Shown: positions 44,427 to 64,000 of the stretch, piece by piece | How the letters are laid out: every line of letters starts with the position of its first letter | Position numbering within the stretch: the first letter of the stretch is position 1 | Source of the DNA: Xanthomonas floridensis | GTDB taxonomy: Bacteria; Pseudomonadota; Gammaproteobacteria; Xanthomonadales; Xanthomonadaceae | Assembly: GCF_001642575.1 (NCBI RefSeq) | Contig: NZ_LXNG01000007.1 | Coordinates: 62,001-126,000 of the forward strand | Length of the DNA: 64,000 nt | Reading direction: 5' to 3' | Notes under the pieces: generated by a model | Seen by the model: only the letters and a program-made list of their open reading frames with translations | The model's database searches: none | Told to the model about the DNA's origin: nothing | Position numbers and translations under genes: made by a program

Positions 44427-44493
44427 ATTTATTCCGTCGCCTCTCTGTTAGGGGCTGGCCTGACGATAGCATTTGGTAATCAACGGATAACCC

Positions 44494-47446: not shown

Positions 47447-47458
47447 CGGATAGATGTG

Positions 47459-48490: not shown

Positions 48491-48531
48491 TGTCAGGTGA
48501 TGGCTGTAACTTTGAGCTGATGAGGTGAATC

Positions 48532-49458: not shown

Positions 49459-49528
49459 CGATTGCAACCCCAACGGCCGGCAGTGCCAGCCAGTAGTTGT
49501 CGCTAGACCATCATCAAGGAGATTGACA

Positions 49529-49918
49529 GTGAAGTTGAATAACCAAGACATCGCAAATGCACGTCGTACGCTCAAGACCATTGCTTATGCCGTCGCGTCG
49601 GTTGCCCTGTTTGCTTCGGGTGCTGCACTGGCGACAGGTGGTACCACGTACGGCGGCACGGACAAGAGAGTCTGTGGCTTTTTCGAAGACATCAATGGCT
49701 TGCTCAGCATGGCGTCGATTGCAGTTGTGACCATCGCCGTGATCTTCTCGGGTTACCAGATCGCATTTGCCCACAAGCGTATTGGCGATGTTGCTCCCAT
49801 CCTGATCGGCGGCGTTTTCATCGGTGCTGCCGGGCAGATTGCGACGATGCTGATCGGCGAGGACGGCGAGAAGTGCACCGCAATGGTGACGCAGCTCAGC
49901 CAGTACATGAATGCATAA
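49529..49918 (+). CDS. virB2: VirB2 major pilin
   Basis: VirB2 (129 residues) is the pilin-like subunit. A long leader with hydrophobic core (TIAYAVASVALFASGAALAT) is followed by CGFFEDINGLLSMASIAVVTIAVIFSGYQIAFA, a short basic loop HKRIG and a second helix VAPILIGGVFIGAAGQIATMLI. The start is the GTG at 49529, which has AAGGAG at 49516-49521 with seven-base spacing; the in-frame TTG at 49523 is too close to that site. It overlaps virB3 by eight bases. Confidence 0.92.
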   Translation: MKLNNQDIANARRTLKTIAYAVASVALFASGAALATGGTTYGGTDKRVCGFFEDINGLLSMASIAVVTIAVIFSGYQIAFAHKRIGDVAPILIGGVFIGAAGQIATMLIGEDGEKCTAMVTQLSQYMNA

Positions 49919-50219
49919 GAACGTCGTCTTCAGAGGTTGCACCCGCCCGGCAATGTTCATGGGTGTCCCGTACTTGCCGTTCTTCATCATCGTGGGCGGG
50001 ACATTCCTGCTGTCCCTGTACACCAGGATGTGGGTCATGGCGGCAATTCCTCTTGAGATCTTTGTCCTGCGGCAGATGGCGCGCCGTGATGAGATGATTT
50101 TCCGGATGCTTGGGCTGAAGGTCCAGTTTCAGTTGAAGGTCAGGAATGTTGGCAATCACGCAGGGAACTGGGTGTTTTCGCCTAACAACTATCGTCGAAC
50201 ACCCGCGCCGAAAGATTGA
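49911..50219 (+). CDS. virB3: VirB3 inner-membrane protein
   Basis: VirB3 (102 residues) is a small inner-membrane protein associated with VirB4. It starts NVVFRGCTRPAMFMGVPYLPF, the family pattern, with two hydrophobic helices (about 18-35 and 40-55) and a basic C-terminal region RRDEMIFRMLGLKVQF. It overlaps virB2 (ATGCATAA) and precedes virB4 by 80 bases. Confidence 0.93.
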   Translation: MHKNVVFRGCTRPAMFMGVPYLPFFIIVGGTFLLSLYTRMWVMAAIPLEIFVLRQMARRDEMIFRMLGLKVQFQLKVRNVGNHAGNWVFSPNNYRRTPAPKD

Positions 50220-50299
50220 AGCAGGCAACGAACCGGCAGCTGGTCTGCCGGTTCGCTGCATGGAAGATCCTTGGTTACGTGTTTTCAATGGAATAAAGC

Positions 50300-52741
50300 A
50301 TGTTCAGTCCAGATGCGCCAATTGGTGACTTCATTACGCTGTCATCCCATGTTGCACCTGCGGTCATCAAGACCACGGGCGGCGATTTCCTGATTACATG
50401 GCATTTGGAAGGGTTGCCTTTCGTCGGCCGTGAAGACTGGGATCTGGAACACAAGCACAACACCTTCAACCGTCTGCTGCAGACCCTGCGTGCCCCTGAT
50501 TTCGTGAACGTTGCATTCTGGGTTCACGATGTGCGCCGCAAACGTCGCCTCAAGAGCAAGAGCTCGTTTCGGCAACGCTTCAACCAGGATCTGTCTGACG
50601 AGTATTTTGAAATGCTCTCGGCGCAGCGGATCATGCAGAACGAGCTGTACCTGACCATGATTTACCGCCCCGTGGTGGCGGGCAAGCGTTTCGTGGAAAA
50701 ATCAACCAACGTCGAGAAGTTGCAGGCTGAGCAAAATCAGGCGATTGCCAAGCTGATGGAAATGGCGGGCAATGTTGAAGCCGTGATTCGCGACTATTCT
50801 CCGTATCGTCTTGGCATGTACGAGGCAAAGAATGGGGTCGTCTTTTCCGAGGCGCTCGAGTTCTTTGGTTATCTCATCAACCGCATCGACGAGCCGGTTC
50901 CGGTGCTTTCTGCGCCGATCAAGGACTATCTGCCGGTCAGCCGGCACACGTTTTCGCCGAAGACGGGCGATTTCCTGGTGACGACACCGAACGGAGGCAA
51001 CCACTTCGGGGCAATCCTGAATATCAAGGAATACGCTGAGGCGACCTTCCCAGGCATCCTCAATGGCCTCAAATACCTTGATTTCGAGTATGTGATCACC
51101 CATTCCTTCAGCCCGATGGGGCGGCAGGATGCCTTGAAGGTACTGGATCGCACCAAGGGCATGATGATTTCCTCTGGCGACAAGGCCGTCAGTCAGATCG
51201 TGGAACTGGACCAGGCGATGGATCAGCTGTCGTCGGGCAATTTTGTGTTGGGTGAATACCACTTCCTGGTAGCCATCTATGCCGATAGCCAGGAGCGTCT
51301 TTCTCAGAATATTGCGGCAACACGCGCGGAGTTGTCGAACGCAAGTTTCGTTTCTGCCAAGGAAGATATTGCAATCGCATCGTCCTTCTATTCTCAGCTG
51401 CCCGGAAACTGGCGCTACAGGACGCGGCTGGCCAATATCAGTTCGCTGAACTTCCTTGGCTTGTCGCCGCTGCATAACTTTGCTACCGGCAAGCAACATA
51501 ATAATCCCTGGGGGGACTGCGTCACGACGCTGCAGACCACCAACGGCCAGCCCTACTATTTCAATTTCCACGCGACCCATCCTTCGGAGAACTCGTTGGG
51601 GGAAAAGGCAATCGCCAATACGATGGTGATCGGCAAGTCCGGTACCGGTAAGACTGCGCTGATCAACTTCCTGTTGAGTCAGGTGCAGAAATACGAGCCG
51701 TCGCCGACGATCTTCTTCTTCGACAAGGACCGAGGTGCGGAAATCTTCGTGCGTGCCTGTGGTGGAAACTATCTTGTGCTCGAAAACGGTCAACCTACCG
51801 GCTTCAATCCGTTCCAGTGCGAGCGCTCGGAAGAGAATGTCCAGTTCCTTGCGGACCTGATCAAGGTGCTGGCTGGCAAGCGTGAGTACACCTCGCGCGA
51901 GGAAGAGGATATCTATCGGGCGGTCGAGAACATGCTCGATACCCCGATGCACCTGCGCAGCATGAGCAATTTTCAGAAGAGCCTCCCCAACATGGGGGAC
52001 GACGGTTTGTACGCGCGTATGCGGCGCTGGACGTCGGGCAATTCGCTTGGTTGGGTGTTCGACAATCCGGTTGACACGATCGACCTGAGTCGCGCGAACA
52101 TCATCGGCTTCGATTACACCGACGTGATCGATAACCCTGAAGTTCGCGTGCCGGTCATCAATTATCTGCTGCATAAGCTTGAATCGCTGATCGATGGGCG
52201 CCCTCTCATTTACGTAATGGATGAGTTCTGGAAGATTCTGGACGGCGAGGGTGGCCTGAAGGAATTTGCCAAGAACAAGCAGAAGACCATTCGTAAGCAA
52301 AACGGTATGGGTATCTTCGCCACGCAAAGCCCTGAAGACGCTTTGAAGAGCGACATCGCCGCGGCCCTGATCGAGCAGACTGCCACGCTGATCCTGCTGC
52401 CCAATCCGAACGCGAGCAGGGAAGACTACATCGAAGGCCTGAAGCTGACTGATGCAGAATTCCAGGTCGTTACGGCCTTGGACGAACGGTCACGCTGCTT
52501 CCTGGTAAAACAGGGGCACGCGTCGAGTGTATGTCAGCTCAATCTGCGCGGCATGGATGATGCACTGTCGGTGATTTCCGCATCGACCGATAATATCGAG
52601 ATCATGCATCGGGTGATTCAGGACGCAGCGCTCAAGCGTGGCGTCCATATCAGTGAACTTTCACCTGAAGAATGGCTCGACACGTTTTATGAGAAGCGTA
52701 AAGGCTCGCGCAGTAAAAAACAGCAGGTCATTGCCGCCTGA
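50300..52741 (+). CDS. virB4: VirB4 ATPase
   Basis: VirB4 (813 residues) is the largest T4SS ATPase and drives pilus biogenesis and substrate transfer. The N-terminal CagE/TrbE-type domain (about 1-400) is followed by a RecA-like ATPase domain with Walker A GKSGTGKT near residues 445-452, Walker B PLIYVMDEFWKIL near residue 637 and the downstream arginine/Gln region KQNGMGIFATQSPEDAL. No transmembrane fusion with VirB3 is seen. It is a single intact frame in the normal position between virB3 and virB5. Confidence 0.96.
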   Translation: MFSPDAPIGDFITLSSHVAPAVIKTTGGDFLITWHLEGLPFVGREDWDLEHKHNTFNRLLQTLRAPDFVNVAFWVHDVRRKRRLKSKSSFRQRFNQDLSDEYFEMLSAQRIMQNELYLTMIYRPVVAGKRFVEKSTNVEKLQAEQNQAIAKLMEMAGNVEAVIRDYSPYRLGMYEAKNGVVFSEALEFFGYLINRIDEPVPVLSAPIKDYLPVSRHTFSPKTGDFLVTTPNGGNHFGAILNIKEYAEATFPGILNGLKYLDFEYVITHSFSPMGRQDALKVLDRTKGMMISSGDKAVSQIVELDQAMDQLSSGNFVLGEYHFLVAIYADSQERLSQNIAATRAELSNASFVSAKEDIAIASSFYSQLPGNWRYRTRLANISSLNFLGLSPLHNFATGKQHNNPWGDCVTTLQTTNGQPYYFNFHATHPSENSLGEKAIANTMVIGKSGTGKTALINFLLSQVQKYEPSPTIFFFDKDRGAEIFVRACGGNYLVLENGQPTGFNPFQCERSEENVQFLADLIKVLAGKREYTSREEEDIYRAVENMLDTPMHLRSMSNFQKSLPNMGDDGLYARMRRWTSGNSLGWVFDNPVDTIDLSRANIIGFDYTDVIDNPEVRVPVINYLLHKLESLIDGRPLIYVMDEFWKILDGEGGLKEFAKNKQKTIRKQNGMGIFATQSPEDALKSDIAAALIEQTATLILLPNPNASREDYIEGLKLTDAEFQVVTALDERSRCFLVKQGHASSVCQLNLRGMDDALSVISASTDNIEIMHRVIQDAALKRGVHISELSPEEWLDTFYEKRKGSRSKKQQVIAA

Positions 52742-52794
52742 GTTCAGGGAAGTTGCGTACTTCGATCGATTGAAAGGGAAGCTGGAGAATAAAA

Positions 52795-53619
52795 ATGAAT
52801 GTACAGACTGAACGCGCTAAAAAAACCCATTCTGTCCGGTCCAAGCTACGAACGCTGGTATTGGTCGCTGGCTGCACGGTATGCTTGAATGGCCAGGCTG
52901 TTACATTCATCGATCCTGCGAACCTGGTTGAAAATTTCACGCAGCGGGTTCAGTCCGCGTGGCAGTTTGCCAAAGATAATTCGCAATATGCGAAAGAGGC
53001 GCAATACTTCATCGACCAGGCACAGCGGTGGAAGCGACAGTACGATGCGGCGATGGCCTTTATTAATTTGCGAGCCTTTCGTTCGTTGCTGCCCGACGGC
53101 GTAAAGCTGGAAAAGGTTGATGAAGAATACATGGTGAAAGAGCGGTGTGGTGGCGATGCCCCTAGCGTATTTAGTGTTTCCGGACTGAAAGAGATTATCA
53201 AGAACACAGTCCAGGAGGCTATGAATAGCGAGGATATCGATAAGCAGCAGAAAAAAACTTGTGCTTATATCCAGATGTTAAAAAACAAGCAGTACAATGA
53301 ATCAATGGATTTCCTTTATAGCACGATGCCGGCCTTTCAGGACCGGCTGGATGGTATTGTGAATGGCGCCATTGGCAATAAAAAGCCAGGCGAAGTTTCG
53401 GCAATGATGTTCGAGCTGAAAGCTCTTTCCAATGCGATGGATATCCAGATGTCGACGTGGACGGCTCGCAATCAGGCGTATCAGAGCTACATCGTTTTGA
53501 TGGAGGACAAGCAGAAGTCGCTGGCGACGCAGGCGCTTAGGGGCAAAGAGGTGCTGCTGGGTACCGTTGTGAAGAATCTTGCCTTACGTGCTGCGTTGAA
53601 GAACGAGCAAACCAAGTAA
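52795..53619 (+). CDS. virB5: VirB5-type minor pilus protein
   Basis: A 274-residue protein in the virB5 position. The N-terminal signal segment (LRTLVLVAGCTVCLNGQAV) is followed by TFIDPANLVENFTQRVQSAW, a helical core with KEAQYFIDQAQRWKRQYDAAM, and a C-terminal helix. The helix-rich layout with VDPxN near the start is the VirB5/TrbJ style. A conserved cysteine pair (near residues 121 and 148) may form a disulfide. The gene is somewhat AT-richer than virB4. Assigned mainly by position and helical pattern. Confidence 0.85.
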   Translation: MNVQTERAKKTHSVRSKLRTLVLVAGCTVCLNGQAVTFIDPANLVENFTQRVQSAWQFAKDNSQYAKEAQYFIDQAQRWKRQYDAAMAFINLRAFRSLLPDGVKLEKVDEEYMVKERCGGDAPSVFSVSGLKEIIKNTVQEAMNSEDIDKQQKKTCAYIQMLKNKQYNESMDFLYSTMPAFQDRLDGIVNGAIGNKKPGEVSAMMFELKALSNAMDIQMSTWTARNQAYQSYIVLMEDKQKSLATQALRGKEVLLGTVVKNLALRAALKNEQTK

Positions 53620-53683: not shown

Positions 53684-54829
53684 ATGGTTATGGACATCGC
53701 TAGTACAGTTTCCGGTTGGCTGCCCACAATGCGTGTGGCCGATGGTGGCTCGATAGGAGATTTCTTCTTCTTTCAGGCCATTATCGAGTATCTTCGGATC
53801 GAAATTTACAACTTCGGCCTCGAGACGATGCGTCGGTTGATGGTCTGGGTTGGTGGAATAGCCTTGACATTGATGACGTTATGGATCTTGCTGCAGGGCT
53901 ATCTGATCATTACCGGCAAGACCAGGGACTCGATGATGTCCTTGGTCACTGGCATGGCGCGCGGTGCGCTTGTAGTCATGGTCGCCTCCTCGATGGGGAT
54001 GTTCGGCCAGGATCTGCATCAGTTTTTGGCGGTGAACGTTCCCCAGGAAATCACGGGGCTGATCACCGGCAACGAGGATGAAACGGCAGAGCAGCAGATC
54101 GACCAAAGCCTGGCCTGGATGCAGGTTGCGCTGACCACGATCGACGCCCTGCAAGTGGTGGATGATAAGGGACTGCAAGAAGAAAAAGCCACCGCGATGT
54201 GGATGACGGGCATCGGCACCGGTGGACCGGCGCTGACGGCTGCTGCCATGTTGTTGCTGTATCAGGTGGCCATTGCGATGTTCGTCGGTTTTGGTCCGCT
54301 GTTCATCCTGTGCCTGCTCTTCGACCAGACCAAGCAGCTGTTCCAGAAGTGGCTGCTTTACGGGATCGGCACGATGTTCTCGATGGGCGTGCTGGCCGCG
54401 ATGGTGTCGATCTGCATGAAGATGGTGGTCAAGGTTGCCGGATCGCTCTGGGCGGTCAAGGGGCTTGGCATATTGTTGCAAACCGATTTCACGAACGGCA
54501 TCACAAGCCAGGCCATGCAAACGGGCGGGATGGGCGTATTGTTGACGCTCCTGATCCTGACAACTCCGCCGATGGCAGCTTTCTTCTTCCAGGGCACGCT
54601 GGGCAGCTTCATGGCGTATTCGCAGATTGGTGGCGCTACATCGGCCGGCGGATCGCCTGGGCCGCAGGGGCAGGCGCCGGGGTCGTACACCCCCAGTGCT
54701 CCTAGAAATCAAAGTAGTACGGCTGATAGCGATGTAGGAAGATCTACTAATCCAGTCATCAGGTCGGGTTCTCCCGAGCCGGGCGCTCAGCCTGGTATGC
54801 GTGCAAGCGGAAATTTTGAGCGCGGATAA
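53684..54829 (+). CDS. virB6: VirB6 polytopic inner-membrane protein, full-length copy
   Basis: VirB6 (381 residues) is the polytopic inner-membrane channel component. About six hydrophobic helices lie between residues 45 and 310, including AMFVGFGPLFILCLLF and the last one MGVLLTLLILTTPPMAAFFFQG. The C-terminal domain continues SFMAYSQIGGATSAGGSPG-PQGQAPGSYTP (ending at residue 337), then an unusual 44-residue low-complexity tail (SAPRNQSSTADSDV ... ASGNFERG). Only this copy is complete; the 3' part is repeated with different tails eight more times downstream. The stop is four bases before a DUF4189 gene, so tail and partner are translated together. Confidence 0.95.
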   Translation: MVMDIASTVSGWLPTMRVADGGSIGDFFFFQAIIEYLRIEIYNFGLETMRRLMVWVGGIALTLMTLWILLQGYLIITGKTRDSMMSLVTGMARGALVVMVASSMGMFGQDLHQFLAVNVPQEITGLITGNEDETAEQQIDQSLAWMQVALTTIDALQVVDDKGLQEEKATAMWMTGIGTGGPALTAAAMLLLYQVAIAMFVGFGPLFILCLLFDQTKQLFQKWLLYGIGTMFSMGVLAAMVSICMKMVVKVAGSLWAVKGLGILLQTDFTNGITSQAMQTGGMGVLLTLLILTTPPMAAFFFQGTLGSFMAYSQIGGATSAGGSPGPQGQAPGSYTPSAPRNQSSTADSDVGRSTNPVIRSGSPEPGAQPGMRASGNFERG

Positions 54830-54833
54830 CTAC

Positions 54834-55331
54834 ATGAAATTGATCAAATATTTTTCTTATTTGGCGATGCTGCTTCCTTTTCACGCCATGGGCGAGGGCC
54901 GCTGTCCGCCTGGCTTCGTTCCAATCGGTGGTCAAGGCGCAGAGGGATGTGCTCCGATTGGGGGCAGTAGTACTTCAATGCCACAGCCCACGGGTCATTG
55001 GGAAAAAAGATGGGGAGCTATTGCATTAGAAGATGGTGAAGGGGGAGCGGTAGGCGTTTCGGCCGGAAAAAAAAGCCGGAGAGATGCAGTTGGCGAAGCT
55101 GTTAATTTGTGTGAGAAGACCGGAGTGAGTTGTAAAACTTTCGTGTATTTTAATCAATGTGCCGCATTGGCATGGCCTGGTCGCCCCGAGCACGGGAGGA
55201 TTATTAGGCAGGGTGCAGAAAAGCTGCAACAAGCCGAATCCCTTGCCTTGGAGAAATGCAATAATGGTGGCGATAATGACTGTAAAATAGTGTACTCGGC
55301 TTGCTCTTATCCGGAATTTAGAAGGTATTAG
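54834..55331 (+). CDS. Secreted DUF4189 protein, copy 1 (partner of full-length VirB6)
   Basis: A 165-residue periplasmic-type protein: signal peptide to about residue 19 (YLAMLLPFHAMG-EG), then the array-wide motif CPPGFVPIGGQGAEGCAPI, a variable linker, and a DUF4189 domain starting at WEKRWGAIALED. Eight cysteines at conserved places suggest four disulfides. The class with YFNQCAALA resembles copy 7 (61432). The ATG at 54834 lies four bases after the virB6 stop. The usual second motif position GGQG and the C-terminal YSACSYPEFRRY are intact. Function unknown; a role tied to the VirB6 tail is inferred from linkage. Confidence 0.85.
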   Translation: MKLIKYFSYLAMLLPFHAMGEGRCPPGFVPIGGQGAEGCAPIGGSSTSMPQPTGHWEKRWGAIALEDGEGGAVGVSAGKKSRRDAVGEAVNLCEKTGVSCKTFVYFNQCAALAWPGRPEHGRIIRQGAEKLQQAESLALEKCNNGGDNDCKIVYSACSYPEFRRY

Positions 55332-55502
55332 AAGTCCGTTAGTTATTTTTTGGTCTGCGACAAATTGAATTATTTTTTGTGCTGCGCTGAAAAAGCTAAT
55401 TGCCTAGTTGGCTGTTGCCATATAAAAAGCATGTAAAGAAGATGGACGGGTATGCTTTGCTCCTAATCTCAGAGATGTTGCGGGTAGCCGCCTTCTCTTC
55501 CG

Positions 55503-56283
55503 GATCACCGGCAACGAAGATGAAGCGGCGAAGTAGCAAATCGACGAAAGCCTTGCCTGGATGCAAGTTGAAGTGACTACAATCGATTCGCTGCAGGTTG
55601 TCGCCGATGAAGGGCTGCAGCGAGAGAAGGCATAGCAATGTGTTTCACGGGCCTTGGTACCGGCGGTCCGGCGCTGCCATGTTGTAGCTTTACCAGATCG
55701 CCATTGCGATCTTTGTTGGTTTTGGTCCGCTGTTCATCCTGTGCCTGCTCTTCGAACAGATCAAGCAACTGTTCCAGAAGTGGCTGCTTTACGGGATCGG
55801 CACGATGTTCTCGATGGGCGTGTTGGCTGCCATGGTGTTGATCTGCATGAAGATGGTGGTCAAGGTTGCCGGATCGCTATGGGCGGTCAAGGGGCTTGGC
55901 ATATTGTTGCAAACCGATTTCACGAACGGCATCACAAGCAAGGCCATGCAAACGGGCGGGATGGGCGTATTGTTGACGCTCCTGATCCTGACAACTCCGC
56001 CGATGGCAGCATTCTTCTTCCAGGGCACGCTGGGCAGCTTCATGGCGTACTCGCAGATCGGTGGCGCTACATCGGCCGGCGAATCGCCTGGGCCGCAGGG
56101 GCAGGCGCCGGGGTCTTATACTCCACCAGCACCCGCCAGAGAGTCCCAATCCACGGTCGACTCTTCTGCAGGGGGATATCGTGCTGCACTGCCTAGTTCA
56201 GGACCTTCTTTCGACCCAAGCGTATCTCCGGTGCAATGGCACAAGCCCCAACATCAAACGACATGAAGCGTTCTCGCGAGTAA
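55503..56283 (+). pseudogene. virB6 3' fragment, unit 1 (frameshifted, tail type 'NDMKRSRE')
   Basis: Homology to virB6 begins at GATCACCGGCAACGA (virB6 54061) and runs to the tail. The 5' part carries in-frame stops (for example TAG at the position of an expected Gln codon) and indels. From 55805 there is an open segment MFSMGVLAAMVLICMKMVV to PGSYTP, then the tail PPAPARESQS. A single missing base near 56229 (CTCCGGTGC, where the copy at 63.5 kb reads CTCCTGGTGC) shifts the frame, so the native end NDMKRSRE followed by TAA at 56281 is read out of frame. It is not a functional VirB6. Confidence 0.88.
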
Positions 56284-56322
56284 CTATCTAAATACGAGCG
56301 CTATGGACGATCTAGGTGATTT

Positions 56323-56823
56323 ATGATTAAAGCTATCCTTTTTTTCTTTCTACTCCTATTGGCTTTTGAGTCGTTTGCGGAGGGTAATTGCCCTCCAGGA
56401 TATTACCCAATCGGAGGGCAGGGCGCCGCGGGTTGTGCGCCTATACCTCAGGGTGGAGGGGCTGGTGCGAACTCAGCACCGAGGGCAACGGGTAAATGGC
56501 TTAAAACGTGGGGGGCAGTTGCAGGTCGAAAGGATGGTGGTGACTTAGGTACCGCGTCCGGTAAGTTGAGTAAGCGTGACGCGGCCAAGTCTGCATTGGA
56601 TATGTGCGGTGGCGAGTCTCGTGGGTGCAAAATTATATACACCTATAGGAACGGTTGTATCGGAATGTCGCAAGTGGTTGGTGGAGGGGTTTATGCTTTT
56701 GCAGGAGGGGGGGATTTGCAGGATGCGAAGCGAAACGCAGACAATACTTGCAAGAAGTTATCTGGCAAATCTTGTGAGGTGCTTTATTCAGATTGTACAG
56801 ACCCTGTATTTAAAAGTTTTTAA
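56323..56823 (+). CDS. Secreted DUF4189 protein, copy 2
   Basis: A 166-residue protein: signal peptide LLLLAFESFA-EG, then CPPGYYPIGGQGAAGCAPI, linker, and the DUF4189 domain WLKTWGAVAGRKDGG with SKRDAAKSALDMCGG and the class motif RNGCIGMSQVVGGGVYAFAGG. Eight conserved cysteines. It is almost the same protein as the truncated copy 9 at the right window edge and is closely related to copy 5 (59629). The spacer after its tail is also nearly identical to that of unit 8. It lies 39 bases after the intended tail stop. Confidence 0.85.
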   Translation: MIKAILFFFLLLLAFESFAEGNCPPGYYPIGGQGAAGCAPIPQGGGAGANSAPRATGKWLKTWGAVAGRKDGGDLGTASGKLSKRDAAKSALDMCGGESRGCKIIYTYRNGCIGMSQVVGGGVYAFAGGGDLQDAKRNADNTCKKLSGKSCEVLYSDCTDPVFKSF

Positions 56824-56853
56824 TGGGTTTATTTCTGTATTCTAATTGACTAG

Positions 56854-57384
56854 AGCCTGGCCTGGATGCAGGTTGTGCTGGCCACGATCGACGTACTGCA
56901 AGTGGTGAATTCTTGGTCCTTAGTTTCGACAATATTGATTTATAGTCATTATTGTTGCTGTCAATCCTGCATGAAGATGGTCGTGAAGGTCGCCGGATCG
57001 CTTTGGGCGGTCTAGGGGCTTGGCATATTGTTGCAAACCGATTTCACGAACGGCATCACAAGCCAGGCCATGCAAACGGGCGGGATGGGCGTATTGTTGA
57101 CGCTCCTGATCCTGACAACTCCGCCGATGGCAGCATTCTTCTTCCAGGGCACGCTGGGCAGCTTCATGGCGTACTCGCAGATCGGTGGCGCTACATCGGC
57201 CGGTGGATCGCCTGGGCCGCAGGGGCAGGCGCCGGGGTCTTATACTCCGAGTGCACCTACCGGGACCTCACAACAAGCGTCTAGTGAGGCAACTCGGGCT
57301 TCGGGGCAGCGCTGGGGAGGATCTGGAGTGGATCAGTTTGAACCCTCTGGAGCACGTGCTGCACCGCGCGAATATAACGTATAG
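56854..57384 (+). pseudogene. virB6 3' fragment, unit 2 (internal deletion)
   Basis: Two virB6-matching pieces are joined. 56854-56908 matches the segment around virB6 54107-54162, then a non-virB6 AT-rich junction (TTGGTCCTTAGTTTCGACAATATTGATTT) follows, and from 56967 the homology to virB6 54412 onward resumes. A TAG at 57013-57015 replaces the Lys codon of VKG. The remaining reading frame ends in a 44-residue tail (SAPTGTSQQASSEAT ... REYNV) that differs from every other unit. The junction is shared with unit 3. Confidence 0.87.
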
Positions 57385-57392
57385 GTCGCATA

Positions 57393-57884
57393 ATGAAGAA
57401 ATTACTATACAACGGTTCGGTGGCTTTAATTTTTTCACTTCCAGGAATCTGTTTCGCTGAAGGCTCCTGTCCGCCGGGTTACTATCCAATAGGTGGCCAG
57501 GGTGTTTCCGGCTGCGCACCCATGGGGGGCAACTCAGGGCAGGAAGCTAGACCCACCGGAGAGTGGAGTACGCGTTGGGGAGCGCTGGCTAGAGACAAAG
57601 CAGATACCGTCGTTGGCGTGTCTGTACGTGAAAAATCGAAGTCGGCAGCTCGTAAGAATGCTATTGCAGAGTGTCAAAAGTTAGGCGGTGAACACTGCGA
57701 GGCAACAGTGACATACAAGAACGCTTGTATAGCAGTAGCTGAGTCTACTGCTGCCAATAAGTCGAATACGTCTATTTCTTCAACGAAGGCTGAAGCAGAG
57801 AAGCTGACGCTGGCTACATGTGCGGAGACCGACTGCAAAATCGTTTACTCGGATTGCAGTAGCGCTTCTTTTAACAGATTCTAG
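57393..57884 (+). CDS. Secreted DUF4189 protein, copy 3
   Basis: A 163-residue protein with signal peptide LIFSLPGICFA-EG, motif CPPGYYPIGGQGVSGCAPM, and the DUF4189 domain WSTRWGALARDKADTVVGV with KSKSAARKNAIAECQ and YKNACIAVAEST. Eight conserved cysteines and the C-terminal YSDCSSASFNRF. It follows the unit 2 tail stop by eight bases. The WGALARD subfamily also contains copies 4 and 6. Confidence 0.85.
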   Translation: MKKLLYNGSVALIFSLPGICFAEGSCPPGYYPIGGQGVSGCAPMGGNSGQEARPTGEWSTRWGALARDKADTVVGVSVREKSKSAARKNAIAECQKLGGEHCEATVTYKNACIAVAESTAANKSNTSISSTKAEAEKLTLATCAETDCKIVYSDCSSASFNRF

Positions 57885-58013
57885 GTCCATGCGTTTTTTG
57901 GTTGGCTTTTGAATTTAAGGTGCCATCTTGGAATCGGGAAATGCGCTTAGTTGCATGCTTGGTCCTTAGTTTCGACAATATTGATTTGTAATCAATTATT
58001 GTTGCTGTCGATC

Positions 58014-58419
58014 CTGCATGAAGATGGTGGTCAAGGTCGCCGGATCGCTCTGGGCGGTCAAGGGGCTTGGCATATTGTTGCAAACCGATTTCACGAACGG
58101 CATCACAAGCCAGGCCATGCAAACGGGCGGGATGGGCGTATTGTTGACGCTCCTGATCCTGACGACCCCGCCGATGGCAGCATTCTTCTTTCAGGGCACG
58201 CTGGGCAGCTTCATGGCGTACTCGCAGATCGGCGGCGCTACATCGGCCGGCGGATCGCCTGGGCCGCAGGGGCAGGCGCCGGGGTCGTACACTCCGCCTA
58301 GGCCGATTGAGTCCCTTGGCTCGAATGATTTTGGAAATAATCGGCAAGTTATTGGATCTTCCCCTATTCAACAACAAAATAGCGGCAGTCGAGCTTCTGA
58401 AAGAAGCCAGAATTCGTAG
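58014..58419 (+). pseudogene. virB6 3' fragment, unit 3
   Basis: Homology starts at CTGCATGAAGATGG (58014), preceded by the same AT-rich junction as unit 2 (57959-58013). The reading frame is open from ATG 58018 (MKMVVKVAGSLWAVKG) through PGSYTP to a 40-residue tail (PPRPIESLGSNDFG ... ERSQNS). Intact as a short frame of 133 residues, it contains only the last VirB6 transmembrane segments and cannot be a full VirB6. It may or may not be translated. Confidence 0.87.
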
Positions 58420-58427
58420 AGATCCTT

Positions 58428-58931
58428 ATGAAAATTTTATTTCAGCTAGGTTTGTTGCTTATCCTCTTTTCATGTGCTTGGCCGGTGCTCGCTGAAGGCA
58501 ATTGCCCCCAGGGCTATTATCCCATAGGAGGTCAAGGTGTCTCGGGATGCGCACCTATTAATAGCCAAGGTGCAAACTCTTCGCCTCAGCCTACTGGTGA
58601 GTGGAAAACTCGTTGGGGAGCTCTAGCAAGAGATGAGATCACGCAAACGCTCGGGGTCGCGGCAGGGGAAAAATCTAAATCAGCTGCGCGCCATGCTGCT
58701 ATCGATTTTTGCAGTCAAGATGGCGCTAAGGCTTGCAAAATCGTATTTGTTTACAAGAGCGCTTGTGTTGCTGTCGTTGAGTCTCAGTCTGCTGCGAACT
58801 CAAGCGTAATCTCCGCGCCGGACAGTAAGCAAGCTCTTAAAATGGCTACTGAAAAGTGTGAGGGGCGCGGTGTTTCAGATTGCAAGCTAACTTATTCGGC
58901 TTGCAGTGATCCGGAATTCAAAGCGTACTAA
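58428..58931 (+). CDS. Secreted DUF4189 protein, copy 4
   Basis: A 167-residue protein with signal peptide LLLILFSCAWPVLA-EG, motif CPQGYYPIGGQGVSGCAPI (Pro to Gln at the third position), and the DUF4189 domain WKTRWGALARDEITQTLGV with KSKSAARHAAIDFCSQ and YKSACVAVVES. Eight conserved cysteines and C-terminal YSACSDPEFKAY. Eight bases after its tail stop. AT-rich spacer of about 120 bases follows. Confidence 0.85.
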   Translation: MKILFQLGLLLILFSCAWPVLAEGNCPQGYYPIGGQGVSGCAPINSQGANSSPQPTGEWKTRWGALARDEITQTLGVAAGEKSKSAARHAAIDFCSQDGAKACKIVFVYKSACVAVVESQSAANSSVISAPDSKQALKMATEKCEGRGVSDCKLTYSACSDPEFKAY

Positions 58932-59049
58932 AGTAATTTGCTATAAAAATTTCACGCGTCAATGCTATTTAAATAATTCAATTAATATCTATCTAAATTT
59001 TAAACGGCAGTAATAAATTAATTTGATTGCGTTAGATTAAATCAATCAA

Positions 59050-59590
59050 ATCTTTCAGAAATCGTTGCTCTATGGCACCGGTACGGTGTTCCTGATGGGG
59101 GCTCGCCGCATGATGTCGATCTCAATGGAGATGCTCGCCAAGGTCGTTGGCTCGCTATGGGCAGTGAAAGGTGTCACAGAGGTCGGGTAGTGCAGAGGCT
59201 GGGCGTAGCGTTAGGCATGGATTTAACTAGCGGCATTATAAGCTACGCCATGCAAACGGGCGGGATGGACGTATATTGTTGACGCTCCTGATCCTGACGA
59301 CCCCGCCGATGGCAGCATTCTTCTTTCAGGGCACGCTGGGCAGCTTCATGGCGTACTCGCAGATCGGTGGCGCTACATCTGCCGGTGGATCGCTTGGGCC
59401 GCAGGGGCAGGCGCCGGGGTCTTACACTCCATCTAGTCCTGCTAGAGAGAGTGGACCGTCGGCTTCCTCGTCGGCACCGGAAGTGCGAGCTACATCGCCA
59501 AATTCAGGAGCGTATTCGGGGTCTAGCACGTCTTCCGGCATGATGGCTCAAGCGCCAACTTCAAATGATATGAGCCGTTCTCGTGGGTAA
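59050..59590 (+). pseudogene. virB6 3' fragment, unit 4 (mosaic: diverged 5' part, conserved 3' part)
   Basis: The 5' part (59050-59270) is a strongly diverged virB6-like copy: TTTCAGAAATCGTTGCTCTATGGC corresponds to the FQKWLLYG segment and CTCGCTATGGGCAGTGAAAGG to SLWAVKG, with stops and indels. From about 59276 the sequence is nearly identical to virB6 (LTLLILTTPPMAAFFFQGTLG) through PGSYTP, then a roughly 52-residue tail ending TSNDMSRSRG. The sharp change in similarity inside one copy suggests gene conversion of the 3' block. The tail end is closely like units 1 and 8. Confidence 0.85.
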
Positions 59591-59628
59591 AAGTTTAACT
59601 TCAACCATTCGTGCTTTAGGGTGCCATC

Positions 59629-60123
59629 ATGGTTAAGATTTTCCTGCTATTATTTTTTGTTTTTCTATCTTCTGAATCACTGGCGGAAGGCAACTGCCCT
59701 CCGGGATATTATCCAATTGGGGGGCAAGGCGCTGCCGGTTGCGCTCCTATACCCCAAAGTGGCGCAGGCTCAGGTACGGCACCGAGAGCGACCGGTAAGT
59801 GGATAAAAACTTGGGGGGCAATCGCTATGGCACCCGATGGCACGATGGGCACCTCGTCGGGTAAGTTGAGTAAACGTGACGCCGTGAAATCTGCCATAGA
59901 CTCCTGTGCAGATGGTTCGGAGGGGTGCATGATCAAATACACATTTAGAAACGCTTGTATTGGTATGTCGCAGGTCATTGGAGGGGGCATCTACACTATT
60001 GAGGGCGGGCCCGATCTGCTAGCTGCTCAGCAGAACTCTGACAACTCCTGTAAGCAAAAGTCGGGTAACTCCTGTAAGTTGGTGCATTCCGTCTGTTCAG
60101 AGCCATTTTTTAAGCGTTTCTGA
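59629..60123 (+). CDS. Secreted DUF4189 protein, copy 5
   Basis: A 164-residue protein with signal peptide LLFFVFLSSESLA-EG, motif CPPGYYPIGGQGAAGCAPI and the DUF4189 domain WIKTWGAIAMAPDGTMGT, SKRDAVKSAIDSCAD and RNACIGMSQVIGGGIYTIEGG. It is the same class as copies 2 and 9, and its tail (ending NDMSRSRG) matches theirs, so tail and partner class agree. C-terminal HSVCSEPFFKRF. 38 bases after the tail stop. Confidence 0.85.
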   Translation: MVKIFLLLFFVFLSSESLAEGNCPPGYYPIGGQGAAGCAPIPQSGAGSGTAPRATGKWIKTWGAIAMAPDGTMGTSSGKLSKRDAVKSAIDSCADGSEGCMIKYTFRNACIGMSQVIGGGIYTIEGGPDLLAAQQNSDNSCKQKSGNSCKLVHSVCSEPFFKRF

Positions 60124-60326
60124 GTTGGGATTCTGGGGTTAATCAGACCGGCATGGTCTATGAATTTCTCATTCTGTATAGTAAAATTAAATTTTTCATT
60201 TTTACTCAGTCGGAAGAAAAATTTTATACGTCCAAGACAGCTATCTGCTAAATATCTAGCGACTTGCAGGGCTGGGTTCGGCGCCACGAATGCTGATACA
60301 CTGTACTTCAGTGTGAGCTCAGCCCG

Positions 60327-60611
60327 TTGTTGACGCTCCTGATCCTGACGACTCCGCCGATGGCAGCATTCTTTTTCCAGGGCACGCTGGGCAGCTTCAT
60401 GGCGTATTGGCAGATCGGTGGCGCTACATCGGCCGGTGGATCGCCGGGGCCGCAGGGGCAGGCGCCGGGGTCTTATACGCCTGCTGCGCCGTCTAGCACA
60501 GTTAGTAGCACTGAAAACTTACGAGCCGCAGATACGCGTGTGGCTAGTTCGAGTGCGCCTCAAGCACAAGTGTCAGGCGGGCGTGCGTCAAATAGAAATT
60601 CCGGTGAATAA
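60327..60611 (+). pseudogene. virB6 3' fragment, unit 5
   Basis: A short virB6 piece that begins at TTGTTGACGCTCC and codes the last transmembrane segment, then SFMAYWQIGGATSAGG (Ser to Trp change) and PGSYTP, then a 42-residue tail (AAPSSTVSSTEN ... SNRNSGE). The tail stop (60609-60611) is one base before the next ATG, the tightest junction in the array. About 200 bases of AT-rich unrelated sequence separate it from copy 5. Confidence 0.87.
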
Positions 60612-60612
60612 T

Positions 60613-61101
60613 ATGAAGCAAATTAGGTTTTTATTGATTTTTACTATCTTTTTGTTTGGGCAGACGGCTTTTGCCGAGGGCAATTGTCCACCTGGCTACT
60701 ATCCGATTGGAGGGCAGGGCGTTTCAGGCTGCGCGCCAATGAGCTCAGGTTCGTCGGGGTCCCCTCAACCAACCGGGCAGTGGGACACCAGGTGGGGAGC
60801 GCTAGCAAGAAGCAAGGATAATTCAGTCTTAGGCGCCTCCGATAGCGAGAAAAAAAAATCCTCTGCCAAGAAAAGGGCCTTGGATCTCTGCGTTCAGACT
60901 GGTGGAGAGGAGTGCAAGATAACGTTAGTGTACAAGAACAGCTGTGTAGCCCAGGCTCAGTCTCGGACATTAGAGCGGCTTAATACATTTCTACATAAAT
61001 CTGCAGCGCTCGCTGAAGAAAGTGCTCTTAAGGAATGTGCTCACCAAGATTGTCGGATTACTTATTCGGCATGTAGTTTGGCCGAGTTTAGACGGTATTG
61101 A
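60613..61101 (+). CDS. Secreted DUF4189 protein, copy 6
   Basis: A 162-residue protein with signal peptide FLLIFTIFLFGQTAFA-EG, motif CPPGYYPIGGQGVSGCAPM and the DUF4189 domain WDTRWGALARSKDNSVLGA with KKKSSAKKRALDLCVQ and YKNSCVAQAQS. Eight conserved cysteines, C-terminal YSACSLAEFRRY. It is in the WGALAR class with copies 3 and 4. The start at 60613 follows the tail stop after a single base; the frame is open upstream but that sequence is the tail region in another frame. Confidence 0.85.
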   Translation: MKQIRFLLIFTIFLFGQTAFAEGNCPPGYYPIGGQGVSGCAPMSSGSSGSPQPTGQWDTRWGALARSKDNSVLGASDSEKKKSSAKKRALDLCVQTGGEECKITLVYKNSCVAQAQSRTLERLNTFLHKSAALAEESALKECAHQDCRITYSACSLAEFRRY

Positions 61102-61219
61102 TAACGTCTTTCGCAGCATAGTTTTTTAATAATATTAATTGCAGGATCTTCTGGTTTGTTCCCGAGTGCTCAGGGTGGCGGGGGTTTTCTTTAGTCAACG
61201 ACGTGTTGCAACTTTACTA

Positions 61220-61375
61220 ATGGCGTACTCGCAGATTGGCGATGCGGCCTCGGCTGGCGGATCGCCTGGGCCGCAGGGGCAGGCACCGGGGTCTTATACG
61301 CCAGCACAAAGCGTCAATACTTCTCCTTCCACTCAGCAAAGTAACGATGTGCGAATGGGAGGAGGAGGTACATAG
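61220..61375 (+). pseudogene. virB6 3' fragment, unit 6 (minimal)
   Basis: Recognisable homology is limited to MAYSQIGDAASAGGSPG-PQGQAPGSYTP and a 23-residue tail (AQSVNTSPSTQQSNDVRMGGGGT). Upstream, GTTTTCTTTAGTCAACGACGTGTTGC looks like a decayed remnant of the FFFQGTLG segment. It lacks the last transmembrane segment. The tail is followed by 56 bases before the next gene. Confidence 0.82.
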
Positions 61376-61431
61376 CCACAAACCAGCAACGCCGATGCTG
61401 GATCGAAGGCTGCCCATCGTGATTTAAGATC

Positions 61432-61938
61432 ATGAAAATGAAGCTACTTCCACTCGTTGTATTATTTCTCCTGATGGCGAGCAATGTTTATGCCGAGGGT
61501 CAGTGTCCCCCGGGCTATTACCCTATTGGGGGCCAAGGAGCTGCAGGATGTGCACCAATTAGTGGAGGAGGAAGTAGTCCTGGATTGCCTCAAGCTACAG
61601 GCGAGTGGGAGAAGCGCTGGGGAGCCTTCGCTATAGATGCAGCTGTAGGAGTTCTCGGCGCGTCTGCTCGGAATAAAAGTAAGTCCGATGCCAAGCGTGC
61701 AGCCTTACAAGACTGCCTGGGATTGGGTGGCAAGACCTGCAAGGTTAATTTCGTATACTATAATCAGTGCGCTGCCGTAGCACGTTCGTTAGATGGGGGA
61801 GGTAGCACGATACAGGGAGCGAAGTCAGTAGAAGAGGCAAAAAAGCTTGCGCTGGAAGCTTGTGAATCTAAGTCAAAAATTAAAAGTTGCGAGCTTGTCT
61901 ATACAGAATGTAGCATGTCAGAATTTCGGCGATACTAG
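61432..61938 (+). CDS. Secreted DUF4189 protein, copy 7
   Basis: A 168-residue protein with signal peptide LLPLVVLFLLMASNVYA-EG, motif CPPGYYPIGGQGAAGCAPI and the DUF4189 domain WEKRWGAFAIDAAVGVLGA with KSKSDAKRAALQDCLG and YYNQCAAVARSLDGGG. Eight conserved cysteines; C-terminal YTECSMSEFRRY. It is closest in class to copy 1 (YxNQCAA). AT-rich spacer of about 190 bases with no gene follows (61939-62127). Confidence 0.85.
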   Translation: MKMKLLPLVVLFLLMASNVYAEGQCPPGYYPIGGQGAAGCAPISGGGSSPGLPQATGEWEKRWGAFAIDAAVGVLGASARNKSKSDAKRAALQDCLGLGGKTCKVNFVYYNQCAAVARSLDGGGSTIQGAKSVEEAKKLALEACESKSKIKSCELVYTECSMSEFRRY

Positions 61939-62127
61939 TCGGGTTTTTTAGATTCTTGAGTTGGGTGTACGGGTGGTTTTTAGTATTGAGCTATATTTAA
62001 AGTTTATGAAATTAATAATTTTCAAGTGACTGTCTGTTAGCATGTTCGATGCCCACTACGTGGTGAGTTATGGGGGCGCCACGATCTGCTTTAGGCGCAA
62101 AGGTGTCGGTAGGGCAGCGCCCCAGCT

Positions 62128-62712
62128 GCTGCCATGTTGTTGCTGTACCAGGTTGCCATTGCGATGTTCGCCGGTTTTGGTCCGCTGTTCATCCTGTGCC
62201 TGCTCTTCGACCAGACCAAGCAACTGTTCCAGAAGTGGCTGCTTTACGGGATCGGCATGATGTTCTGGATGGGCGTGTTGGCTGCCATGGTGTCGATCTG
62301 CATGAAGATGGTGGTCGAAGTTGCCGGATCGCTCTGGGCGGTCAAGGGGCTTGGCATATTGTTGCAAACCGATTTCACGAACGGCATCACAAGCCAGGCC
62401 ATGCAAACGGGCGGGATGGGCGTATTGTTGACGCTCCTGATCCTGACGACTCCGCCGATGGCAGCTTTCTTCTTCCAGGGCACGCTGGGCAGCTTCATGG
62501 CGTATTCGCAGATTGGTGGCGCTGCATCGGCCGGCGGATCGCCTGGGCCGCAGGGGCAGGCGCCGGGGTCTTATACTCCCGCCAGATTAAGCGGGGGCGA
62601 GAGGCAGCAGCAAGATGCTAACGTAGGTAACCCTAGCGTGCTGACGGGTGCTCGCACAACAGGTCAACAATCTGAGCCTAGCGAATCTGGGAAACGTGGT
62701 CTAGGAGCATGA
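62128..62712 (+). pseudogene. virB6 3' fragment, unit 7 (long open copy)
   Basis: The longest well-kept fragment after unit 1. From GCTGCTGCCATGTTGTTG (virB6 54238) it is open for 192 residues and has almost the same sequence as VirB6 over MLLLYQVAIAMFAGFGPLFILCLLF through PGSYTP. It then carries a 43-residue tail (ARLSGGERQQQDANV ... GKRGLGA). The upstream 62042-62127 stretch is partly decayed. Because no stop interrupts it, this cassette looks ready for recombination into virB6. The tail stop is three bases before the next gene. Confidence 0.87.
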
Positions 62713-62715
62713 TGA

Positions 62716-63213
62716 ATGAAAAAATTAACGATCTTCTTCTTTATATTACTTTTAGTCCCAATTCCAGTCTTAGCTGAAGGCAACTGTCCGCCGGGTTATT
62801 ATCCGATTGGTGGGCAGGGCGCGGCTGGATGTGCGCCTATTAGTTCCGGACAAACGAGCGGAGTCCCGCAGGCTACTGGCGAATGGCAAACGAGATGGGG
62901 GGCTATTGCTGTAGATGATGCGGGTCTTCGTATAGGCGTTTCATCTGGTGAATCCTCAAAAAGAGCAGCGCGTAAGTTGGCTGCGTCTAGATGTACTGAG
63001 GGTGGCGGAAGTGGTTGTAAAGCTATCATTGACTATAAGAATGGTTGTATTGCAATGGCTGGCTCTGCAAAGGCGAATAGGTCTTCCAGTTACCAGGCTG
63101 ACTCAATTAAGCGTGCTGAACAGCTCGCAATGGAAGTTTGCGGGAAAAAATATGACGACTGCAAAGTGATTTATTCAGAATGCAGTCAGGCGAATTTTAG
63201 GAAATATAAATAG
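62716..63213 (+). CDS. Secreted DUF4189 protein, copy 8
   Basis: A 165-residue protein with signal peptide FFFILLLVPIPVLA-EG, motif CPPGYYPIGGQGAAGCAPI and the DUF4189 domain WQTRWGAIAVDDAGLRIGV with SSKRAARKLAASRCTE and YKNGCIAMAGSAKANR. Eight conserved cysteines; C-terminal YSECSQANFRKYK. It follows the unit 7 tail stop by three bases. A frame-shifted ATG at 62712 is not used. Confidence 0.85.
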   Translation: MKKLTIFFFILLLVPIPVLAEGNCPPGYYPIGGQGAAGCAPISSGQTSGVPQATGEWQTRWGAIAVDDAGLRIGVSSGESSKRAARKLAASRCTEGGGSGCKAIIDYKNGCIAMAGSAKANRSSSYQADSIKRAEQLAMEVCGKKYDDCKVIYSECSQANFRKYK

Positions 63214-63303
63214 AGTTCGCGCTTCTTTTAGATAGTTACTTTGAATGGCTTGAATTTGCTCATGCCGCGAAGAAGCCCAACATTAGCGGGAATTTTATGA
63301 TAG

Positions 63304-63336
63304 GCCTCGGGTCTTATACGCTGCCGGCGACGGCCA
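63304..63336 (+). pseudogene. Remnant of a further virB6 tail junction
   Basis: GCCTCGGGTCTTATACGCTGCC resembles the junction coding PGSYTP (GCCGGGGTCTTATACGCCTGC in unit 5). It is followed by about 80 bases without an intact tail before unit 8 begins. It appears to be a decayed cassette whose DUF4189 gene is gone. Confidence 0.5.
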
Positions 63337-63415
63337 AAGAAGTTTCATCTTCAGTTGTCGTCAGCATAGTGAATTCGAGCTGCCTCGCCTAACTCTGGGC
63401 GTGACCAACATGCGG

Positions 63416-63617
63416 TATGCCTGGGCCGCAGGGGCAGGCGCCGGGGTCTTATACTCCACCAGCACCCGCCAGAGAGTCCCAATCCTCGGCTTCCCCGTCC
63501 TTACCGGAATATCGCGCTGCACTGCCTAGTTCAGGACCTTCTTCCGCCCCAAGCGTATCTCCTGGTGCAATGGCACAAGCCCCAACATCAAACGACATGA
63601 AGCGTTCTCGCGAGTAA
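63416..63617 (+). pseudogene. virB6 3' fragment, unit 8 (minimal block, tail type 'NDMKRSRE')
   Basis: Homology to virB6 is reduced to about 40 bases (GPQGQAPGSYTP), then a tail of about 52 residues (PPAPARESQS ... MAQAPTSNDMKRSRE) followed by TAA. The tail and the 40-base spacer after it are nearly the same as unit 1, where the frame has been lost. Here the frame is intact. No start codon with a ribosome site is apparent, so it is probably silent. Confidence 0.82.
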
Positions 63618-63656
63618 CTATCTAAATACAAGCGCTATGGGCAATCTAGGTGATTT

Positions 63657-64000
63657 ATGATTAAAGCTATCATTTTTTTCTGTCTATTCTTATTGGCCTT
63701 TAGATCGTTTGCAGAGGGTAATTGTCCTCCAGGATATTATCCCATCGGAGGACAGGGCGCCGCGGGTTGTGCGCCTATACCTCAGGGTGGAGGGGCTGGT
63801 GCGAACTCAGCACCGAGGGCAACGGGTAAATGGATTAAAACGTGGGGGGCAGTTGCAGGTCGAAAAGATGGTGGCGACTTAGGTACTGCATCCGGCAAGT
63901 TGAGCAAGCGTGACGCGTCCAAGTCTGCGTTGGATATGTGCGGTGGCGAGTCTCGTGGGTGCAAAATTATATACACCTACAGGAACGGTTGTGTCGGAAT
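63657..64000 (+). CDS. Secreted DUF4189 protein, copy 9 (truncated by window edge)
   Basis: The first 114 residues are present. Signal peptide FFCLFLLAFRSFA-EG, motif CPPGYYPIGGQGAAGCAPI, linker and the beginning of the DUF4189 domain WIKTWGAVAGRKDGGD with SKRDASKSALDMCGG. The visible part differs from copy 2 at only about eight residues (for example Ile/Leu changes and Phe to Cys in the signal peptide), so the two are a recent duplication. The array continues beyond the window. Confidence 0.85.
   Translation, partial: MIKAIIFFCLFLLAFRSFAEGNCPPGYYPIGGQGAAGCAPIPQGGGAGANSAPRATGKWIKTWGAVAGRKDGGDLGTASGKLSKRDASKSALDMCGGESRGCKIIYTYRNGCVG

Follow-up and report, generated by a model that had tools for sequence, protein, structure and literature searches.

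In a 64,000-nucleotide stretch of the Xanthomonas floridensis genome (hereafter the window), a VirB/VirD4 type IV secretion system (T4SS) locus leads into a complete virB6 gene, a gene of the DUF4189 family and eight further units, each composed of a 3' fragment of virB6 with its own open tail just ahead of a DUF4189 gene. Based on sequence comparisons between genomes, the C-terminal tail of VirB6 and DUF4189 are exchanged together as a unit. Each tail/DUF4189 cassette of this array is predicted to represent an exclusion (self-recognition) module that would spare kin from a bacteria-killing T4SS, a reading to which a probability of roughly 0.5 is assigned.

The joint exchange was assessed by comparing species representatives. 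In total, 191 loci were considered as fetched (some places are represented twice; Xanthomonas loci were picked via VirB6 and DUF4189 matches, others via VirB6 only). These loci contain 397 distinct DUF4189 units. A complete virB6 precedes 125 of them (118 intact) and a virB6 fragment precedes 110 (96 intact), the remaining 162 (101 intact) being without a fragment; the latter two groups are referred to as orphans. Among 107 pairs with a VirB6 core identity of at least 0.95, DUF4189 identity was below 0.6 in 87 and at least 0.8 in five. Of 17 independent pairs featuring a core divergence (pS, silent differences per silent site) of at most 0.35, 16 showed a DUF4189 pS of at least 0.55, which is close to saturation; 3 of the 17 pairs lie within one genome each. 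Median pS amounted to 0.14 for the core and 0.75 for DUF4189 (52 pairs), and to 0.35 for the putative virB5 gene (31 pairs), the latter exceeding twice the core value in 8 of its 31 pairs. The silent-site analysis covered 83 of the 118 intact units behind a complete virB6, the other 35 being without an anchor. A silent-site jump of this size is not produced by fast protein evolution but is expected when a diverged allele replaces the resident one.

Furthermore, for 28 of the 197 intact orphan DUF4189 genes, another genome carries a match of 85% identity or more that follows a complete virB6. In all 25 matches with the host unit at hand, the host's own DUF4189 was just 40-79% identical to the orphan, and the VirB6 cores were about 0.9 or more alike in 15 of these. 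The virB6 fragment was kept by 13 of the 28 matched orphans, and in ten of them the tail was also at least 88% identical.

Moreover, tail identity and DUF4189 identity were correlated within groups of like cores (rho 0.50, 0.37 and 0.64 at three cuts; reached by 0 of 500 permutations each), pairs with a DUF4189 identity of at least 0.8, representing recent shared cassettes, having been left out. A shared motif at the tail end was recognized in 62 of the 96 complete units and in 44 of the 95 orphan ones, compared to 1.8% of shuffles. When the motif class of 76 tails was mapped on trees, that of DUF4189 needed 8 changes (17.8 after shuffling, with a minimum of 13) and that of the VirB6 core needed 13 (17.9 after shuffling, with a minimum of 14), the latter beating shuffles too, but less. 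By these measures of sequence, the tail follows DUF4189 more than the core of its own protein. As neighbouring genes are co-inherited anyway, the correlation marks the unit of exchange and not binding. A candidate co-variation between the tail end motif and a DUF4189 residue (z 7.8 at one Tyr/Phe site on pairs) vanished on the tree and was rejected.

The secretion locus and the array are arranged within the window as follows:

41991..53619 (+): virD4 and virB operon upstream of virB6, encoding VirD4, VirB8, VirB9/CagX, VirB10/TrbI, VirB11, a VirB1-like SLT protein, VirB2/TrbC, VirB3 and VirB4 (Pfam scan and open reading frames, ORFs)
52795-53619 (+): putative VirB5 gene, assigned by position and without a Pfam match
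53684..54829 (+): full-length virB6 of unit 1 (Pfam TrbL/VirB6; VirB6/TrwI relative in the PDB)
54683..54826 (+): variable C-terminal tail of the full-length VirB6 (column entropy; no predicted structure)
54831..55331 (+): DUF4189 gene of unit 1, directly behind the complete virB6 (ORF, Pfam)
55503..56266 (+): virB6 3' fragment and tail of unit 2 (ORFs, repeat comparison)
56323..56823 (+): DUF4189 gene of unit 2 (ORF, Pfam)
56845..57384 (+): virB6 3' fragment and tail of unit 3 (ORFs; the tail matches that of the full-length protein P0005)
57393..57884 (+): DUF4189 gene of unit 3 (ORF, Pfam)
57995..58419 (+): virB6 3' fragment and tail of unit 4 (ORFs; the tail resembles those of P0006 and P0004)
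58428..58931 (+): DUF4189 gene of unit 4 (ORF, Pfam; X. campestris protein P0133 is 96% identical)
59044..59590 (+): virB6 3' fragment and tail of unit 5 (ORFs)
59629..60123 (+): DUF4189 gene of unit 5 (ORF, Pfam)
60318..60611 (+): virB6 3' fragment and tail of unit 6 (ORFs)
60613..61101 (+): DUF4189 gene of unit 6 (ORF, Pfam)
61181..61375 (+): virB6 3' fragment of unit 7, with a short tail (ORFs)
61432..61938 (+): DUF4189 gene of unit 7 (ORF, Pfam)
62125..62712 (+): virB6 3' fragment and tail of unit 8 (ORFs, repeat comparison)
62716..63213 (+): DUF4189 gene of unit 8 (ORF, Pfam)
63411..63617 (+): virB6 3' fragment and tail of unit 9 (ORFs)
63657..64000 (+): DUF4189 gene of unit 9, cut by the window end and complete at L020:10657-11157

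Here, L020 denotes a stretch of the same genome reaching past the window end. Pfam matches to VirD4, VirB1-4, VirB6 and VirB8-11 were obtained for the secretion locus, and among the nine DUF4189 genes behind the full virB6, all eight that are complete within the window scored above the Pfam cut-off. In the whole 5.25 Mb genome, DUF4189 matches numbered nine and VirB6 matches 12, all of them located on this array (one contig). The 300-nt repeats show 90-96% identity to the reference copy, which rules out chance as their origin. In-frame stops were present in 5 of the 11 VirB6 matches besides the full gene; the nine DUF4189 matches had no such stops. Behind each DUF4189 gene comes another virB6 fragment, which in eight cases out of nine leads to a further DUF4189 gene; a placement next to a cognate effector gene (X-Tfe), typical of X-Tfi immunity genes, was not observed. 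Past the window, L020 carries a further virB6 fragment with tail, a C-terminal DUF4189 remnant, a XAC2610-family gene (XAC2610_fam, E 2.9e-21) and an XVIPCD effector gene (X-Tfes_XVIPCD, E 6.4e-31). As read from the ORFs, a virB4-like piece and IS3-like transposase ORFs form the right end of the array region (L020:14323-15858), which suggests that larger duplications once extended back into virB4, as in another Xanthomonas locus, L184. Given the VirB/VirD4 gene set with an XVIPCD effector and a XAC2610-type gene nearby, the system has the gene content of the bacteria-killing X-T4SS and is predicted to kill other bacteria.

The units of the array differ in sequence. Median identity is 44% (38-92%) among the nine DUF4189 proteins and 34% (21-66%) among ten tails of 27-56 residues, units 2, 5 and 9 representing one family with DUF4189 proteins 64-92% identical. 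Tails were compared with those of the full-length VirB6 proteins listed (the best 120 of 1414 relatives); P0008 (286 aa, start inside the core) was excluded from this set. Among the listed proteins, the unit 3 tail shows 92% identity to P0005 of X. campestris (next best 55%) and the unit 4 tail 74% to P0006 and 72% to P0004, while no counterpart of the remaining orphan tails was present. In the same set, VirB6 is conserved to about residue 334, and column entropy amounts to approximately 3 bits after residue 340. With a mean pLDDT of 56, the AlphaFold2 model of VirB6 is of poor quality; it predicts no structure at residues 311-379. A toxin domain was not found in the tails, Pfam giving TrbL/VirB6 only.

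DUF4189 proteins feature a signal-peptide-like N-terminus, about eight cysteines, the DUF4189 profile and a two-lobed Rv1813c-type fold; a lipobox-like site was recognized in 34 of 315 intact proteins. Foldseek searches against the PDB yielded no match at E <= 0.001, Pfam returned DUF4189 only for the eight proteins scanned, NCBIfam gave no match for the two proteins scanned, and no kinship to known exclusion proteins (Eex) emerged from the Pfam and NCBIfam scans. A PADLOC scan of three proteins was likewise negative.

An earlier note on this DNA, made from the sequence alone, had described a full virB6 and DUF4189 gene followed by eight units of virB6 3' fragment, tail and DUF4189, and ORFs, repeats and Pfam agree with that layout. 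Its statement that tails and DUF4189 genes differ between units likewise fits the identity medians, though units 2, 5 and 9 form a family. Its suggestion that the VirB6 C-terminus and its partner are exchanged together is borne out by the silent-site and identity comparisons between genomes: almost the same virB6 core is joined to different tails and different DUF4189 genes (for DUF4189, 87 of the 107 like-core pairs described above), and tails or partners orphaned in one genome occur behind a complete virB6 in another (the 28 matched orphans; the unit 3 tail on P0005). This is the opposite of one unvarying tail without shuffling.

The same note had regarded the array as a silent reserve, which is doubtful for its DUF4189 genes. 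The pooled ratio of nonsynonymous to synonymous differences (pN/pS) of DUF4189 was 0.24 for orphan-orphan pairs (13 independent pairs), 0.19 for complete-orphan pairs (13) and 0.13 for complete-complete pairs (3), pairs outside a synonymous divergence (dS) of 0.03-0.7 being left out. Between units 2 and 9 of X. floridensis, the corresponding rate ratio (dN/dS) was 0.16 for DUF4189 and 0.96 for the virB6 fragments over 48 codons. In other within-locus virB6 pairs, dN/dS ranged from 0.06 to 1.20 and was mostly below 0.6, so the fragments are not all drifting freely. Shine-Dalgarno-like sites precede 34 of 116 DUF4189 genes behind a complete virB6, 29 of 89 fragment-linked and 39 of 92 fragment-less ones, compared to about 9% of random positions. 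Broken genes account for 14 of 110 fragment-linked and 61 of 162 fragment-less orphans. As deduced from these ratios, orphan DUF4189 genes are under purifying selection, and because ribosome-binding signals are as frequent as behind a complete virB6, the DUF4189 genes of the array are probably not silent. Since the compared pairs may predate orphaning, the selection signal is no proof of expression.

Within the genus, DUF4189 was detected in 31 of 35 genomes and a VirB6 match in 33 of 35. Among 297 genomes of the family, 129 encode VirB6, 118 DUF4189 and 111 both (Fisher p 1.3e-52, kinship not corrected for); DUF4189 without a VirB6 match was found in seven family genomes (G035, G087, G139, G246, G267, G273, G307). 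Of 167 fetched loci with a full-length virB6, 151 have a DUF4189 gene starting at most 200 bp from its stop, and contig ends truncate four of the other 16 (L079, L105, L176 and L203). The array layout recurs across the family in independent genomes, several of which are single-contig. In Stenotrophomonas arrays, DUF4189 genes often follow each other at sub-kilobase spacing. In Stenotrophomonas sp. BIGb0135 (L134:11042-20900), a more distant virB6 is followed by a run of ten DUF4189 matches, their type lacking the customary cysteine motif at the N-terminus. Several draft contigs start or end inside virB6 or the array (L079/L203, L157, L159, L176, L182, L195-L201), and short-read assemblies therefore probably undercount the array. 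In L184 and L188, a whole or 3'-partial virB6 is joined in each repeat unit by DUF4189, a lipoprotein-like gene and an XVIPCD effector gene. In L183 and L184, overlapping loci of one genome, four virB6 copies have a full-length match; the three in L184 share one core but differ in tail, and behind each stands a DUF4189 gene of its own. The units read there also hold an immunity-like gene and an effector gene, and virB5 plus part or all of virB4 is repeated. A plasmid search for DUF4189 beside conjugative T4SSs returned three records, all alphaproteobacterial, and no T4SS-annotated gene was present in the two stretches viewed, which is of no help to the exclusion idea. One of these records, Rhizobium plasmid pMK-2 (L209, 8213-9995), features three tandem annotated DUF4189 genes, with no T4SS-annotated gene in the 18 kb viewed.

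Under the proposed exclusion mechanism, a new tail/DUF4189 pair would enter by homologous recombination in the virB6 core, and the older pair would be pushed downstream as a 5'-truncated copy. DUF4189, presumably exported through its signal-peptide-like N-terminus, would reside in the periplasm of the target cell, where it would recognize a T4SS bearing the matching VirB6 tail and block transfer. Additional DUF4189 genes of the array may broaden the range of attackers recognized. A bolder and more tentative extension regards the VirB6 tail as a tag, DUF4189 as the target receptor and the array as a growing record of tags worn or met. Together, tail and DUF4189 would then form an exchangeable identity code and the mechanism that spares X-T4SS kin, and VirB6 could be the first secretion-channel subunit found to be re-specified by cassette replacement.

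Several published observations bear on this proposal. Wild-type X. citri spares siblings lacking eight effector/immunity pairs, and a still uncharacterised protection was named by the authors (PMC10933484). The target strains used there comprise a dvirB7 mutant, a XAC2609/XAC2610 double mutant and the eight-pair mutant; in the available part of that source, no listed deletion names XAC2611. On a single transcript, the XAC2611 gene is flanked by virB6 on one side and by the XAC2610/XAC2609 pair on the other (PMC7286519). As the published XAC2611 forward primer matches the DUF4189 gene of one of 210 loci (L170), XAC2611 most likely is the DUF4189 gene. The protection from fratricide in X. citri may be linked to DUF4189. 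Furthermore, VirB6-like proteins (TraG) represent the donor target of exclusion by Eex/TraS in SXT/R391 and F (PMC11493245, PMC8923210), exclusion genes adjoin virB6 homologues in IncP, IncN and IncW (PMC11493245), and RP4 exclusion proteins shield E. coli against killing by the RP4 T4SS (PMC11045733).

Some findings weigh against the exclusion proposal. The C-terminus of VirB6 was cytosolic in reporter work cited by PMC6536674, and the R388 structure places most of VirB6 in the stalk base (PMC9259494), so the tail, and any meeting with DUF4189, may lie on either side of the membrane. In the periplasm, DUF4189 would also encounter VirB6 of the same cell, and the proposal therefore requires a means of distinguishing self from non-self contact. 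Even in a looser form, the tail end motif occurs in only two of the nine units with intact DUF4189 in the X. floridensis array. Tails were unlike (40-58%) in 3 of the 13 matched orphans keeping a virB6 fragment, and much of the tail-DUF4189 correlation is yielded by joint inheritance of neighbours alone. In a tree-aware residue-contact test, which was negative, the expected tail class received 4 of 7 losses (p = 0.10) and 3 of 10 losses (p = 0.49). Moreover, most DUF4189 proteins are without a lipobox-like site, unlike TrbK, and the repeated unit of other Xanthomonas includes effector and immunity genes, which the exchange may serve.

Four other explanations were weighed against these data. 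DUF4189 could be a same-cell partner of VirB6, i.e. an assembly, gating or stalk-lining factor fitted to the tail; mismatched combinations would work badly, both parts would be replaced jointly and orphans would be leftovers. Constant adjacency, co-occurrence with VirB6, joint inheritance, the export signal and the position of VirB6 largely in the R388 stalk base are all in agreement with this view. It leaves unexplained, however, why fragment-less orphans (162 of 397, 101 intact) are kept under purifying selection and what exerts diversifying pressure on both parts, and it is considered unlikely. Rather improbable, too, is a recombination hotspot for modules of effectors and their immunity proteins (X-Tfe/X-Tfi), in which tail and DUF4189 would owe their variation to a position bordering the exchanged segment, with DUF4189 adding no more than another immunity gene of the effector type. 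The units of L184 and L188, with their lipoprotein-like and XVIPCD effector genes, and the XAC2610-family/XVIPCD pair ending the X. floridensis array lend such a hotspot tangible support. It is at odds with the eight of nine X. floridensis DUF4189 genes that have no adjoining effector, the frequent sub-kilobase DUF4189 spacing in Stenotrophomonas arrays and a tail end motif kept far above shuffles; moreover, in the available text of PMC10933484, immunity proteins are not what prevents fratricide.

Antigenic or receptor variation, with tail and DUF4189 changing to evade recognition of the T4SS by phage, predator or plant, would resemble systems in which an exposed part is replaced by cassettes around a conserved core. 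Since a VirB6 tail situated at the base in the inner membrane would offer little to recognition at the surface, and intact orphan partners would be needless, this explanation appears highly unlikely. Barely credible are an assembly artefact and a tandem duplication that simply decays under neutrality. Decay is visible in the stops within virB6 fragments (5 of 11 matches), the dN/dS of 0.96 for the fragments of units 2 and 9 over 48 codons, and the broken DUF4189 genes (14 of 110 fragment-linked, 61 of 162 fragment-less). It is contradicted by the selection and cross-genome results, namely the DUF4189 dN/dS of 0.16 in the very same units, the pooled orphan pN/pS of 0.24 and the recurrence of the layout in independent genomes, including single-contig ones.

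In the open-access library searched, in which three papers name DUF4189, no paper joining this family to type IV secretion was found, and the DUF4189 gene beside virB6 was left as a hypothetical gene in published X-T4SS work (e.g., PMC7286519, in the part available). Tail and DUF4189 represent a candidate pair for the published puzzle of what keeps X-T4SS bacteria from killing their siblings when immunity proteins are not relied upon (PMC10933484). If the exclusion reading is true, a killing machine could draw its self/non-self specificity from a channel subunit, and not from effectors alone, and the alleles of that subunit would be archived alongside.

In orphan modules of Rhs and contact-dependent inhibition (CDI) systems, a full gene is followed by 3' core pieces, each with its own tip and partner gene. 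The likening of the array to these modules in the earlier note holds for the layout, i.e. a full virB6 followed by 3' core copies with differing tip and partner gene, and for the occurrence of the same module as an orphan in one genome and on the full gene in another. It does not extend to the tip, which is a short channel-subunit tail without a toxin domain, or to the partner, as DUF4189 is no known antidote and orphan partners often stand alone. The mycobacterial DUF4189 protein Rv1813c differs in being a secreted factor studied in host cells, for which no T4SS link is described in the available part of that work. X-Tfi immunity proteins of the XAC2610 family are likewise small exported proteins of X-T4SS loci encoded by orphan or paired genes, but their genes adjoin an effector gene, whereas DUF4189 genes adjoin virB6 or its tail. 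Compared with entry exclusion proteins (Eex/TraS with TraG, TrbK of RP4, Eex of IncN/IncP/IncW), DUF4189 shows no relationship in Pfam, usually lacks a lipobox and contains about eight cysteines; its genes are located downstream of virB6, in tandem arrays and beside an effector-delivering system, and exclusion by DUF4189 is a prediction. Both share a small exported or membrane protein encoded beside a VirB6 homologue. In the known exclusion systems, allelic specificity is set by the VirB6-like protein (PMC11493245, PMC8923210), and with the RP4 proteins there is precedent for protection from a lethal T4SS (PMC11045733).

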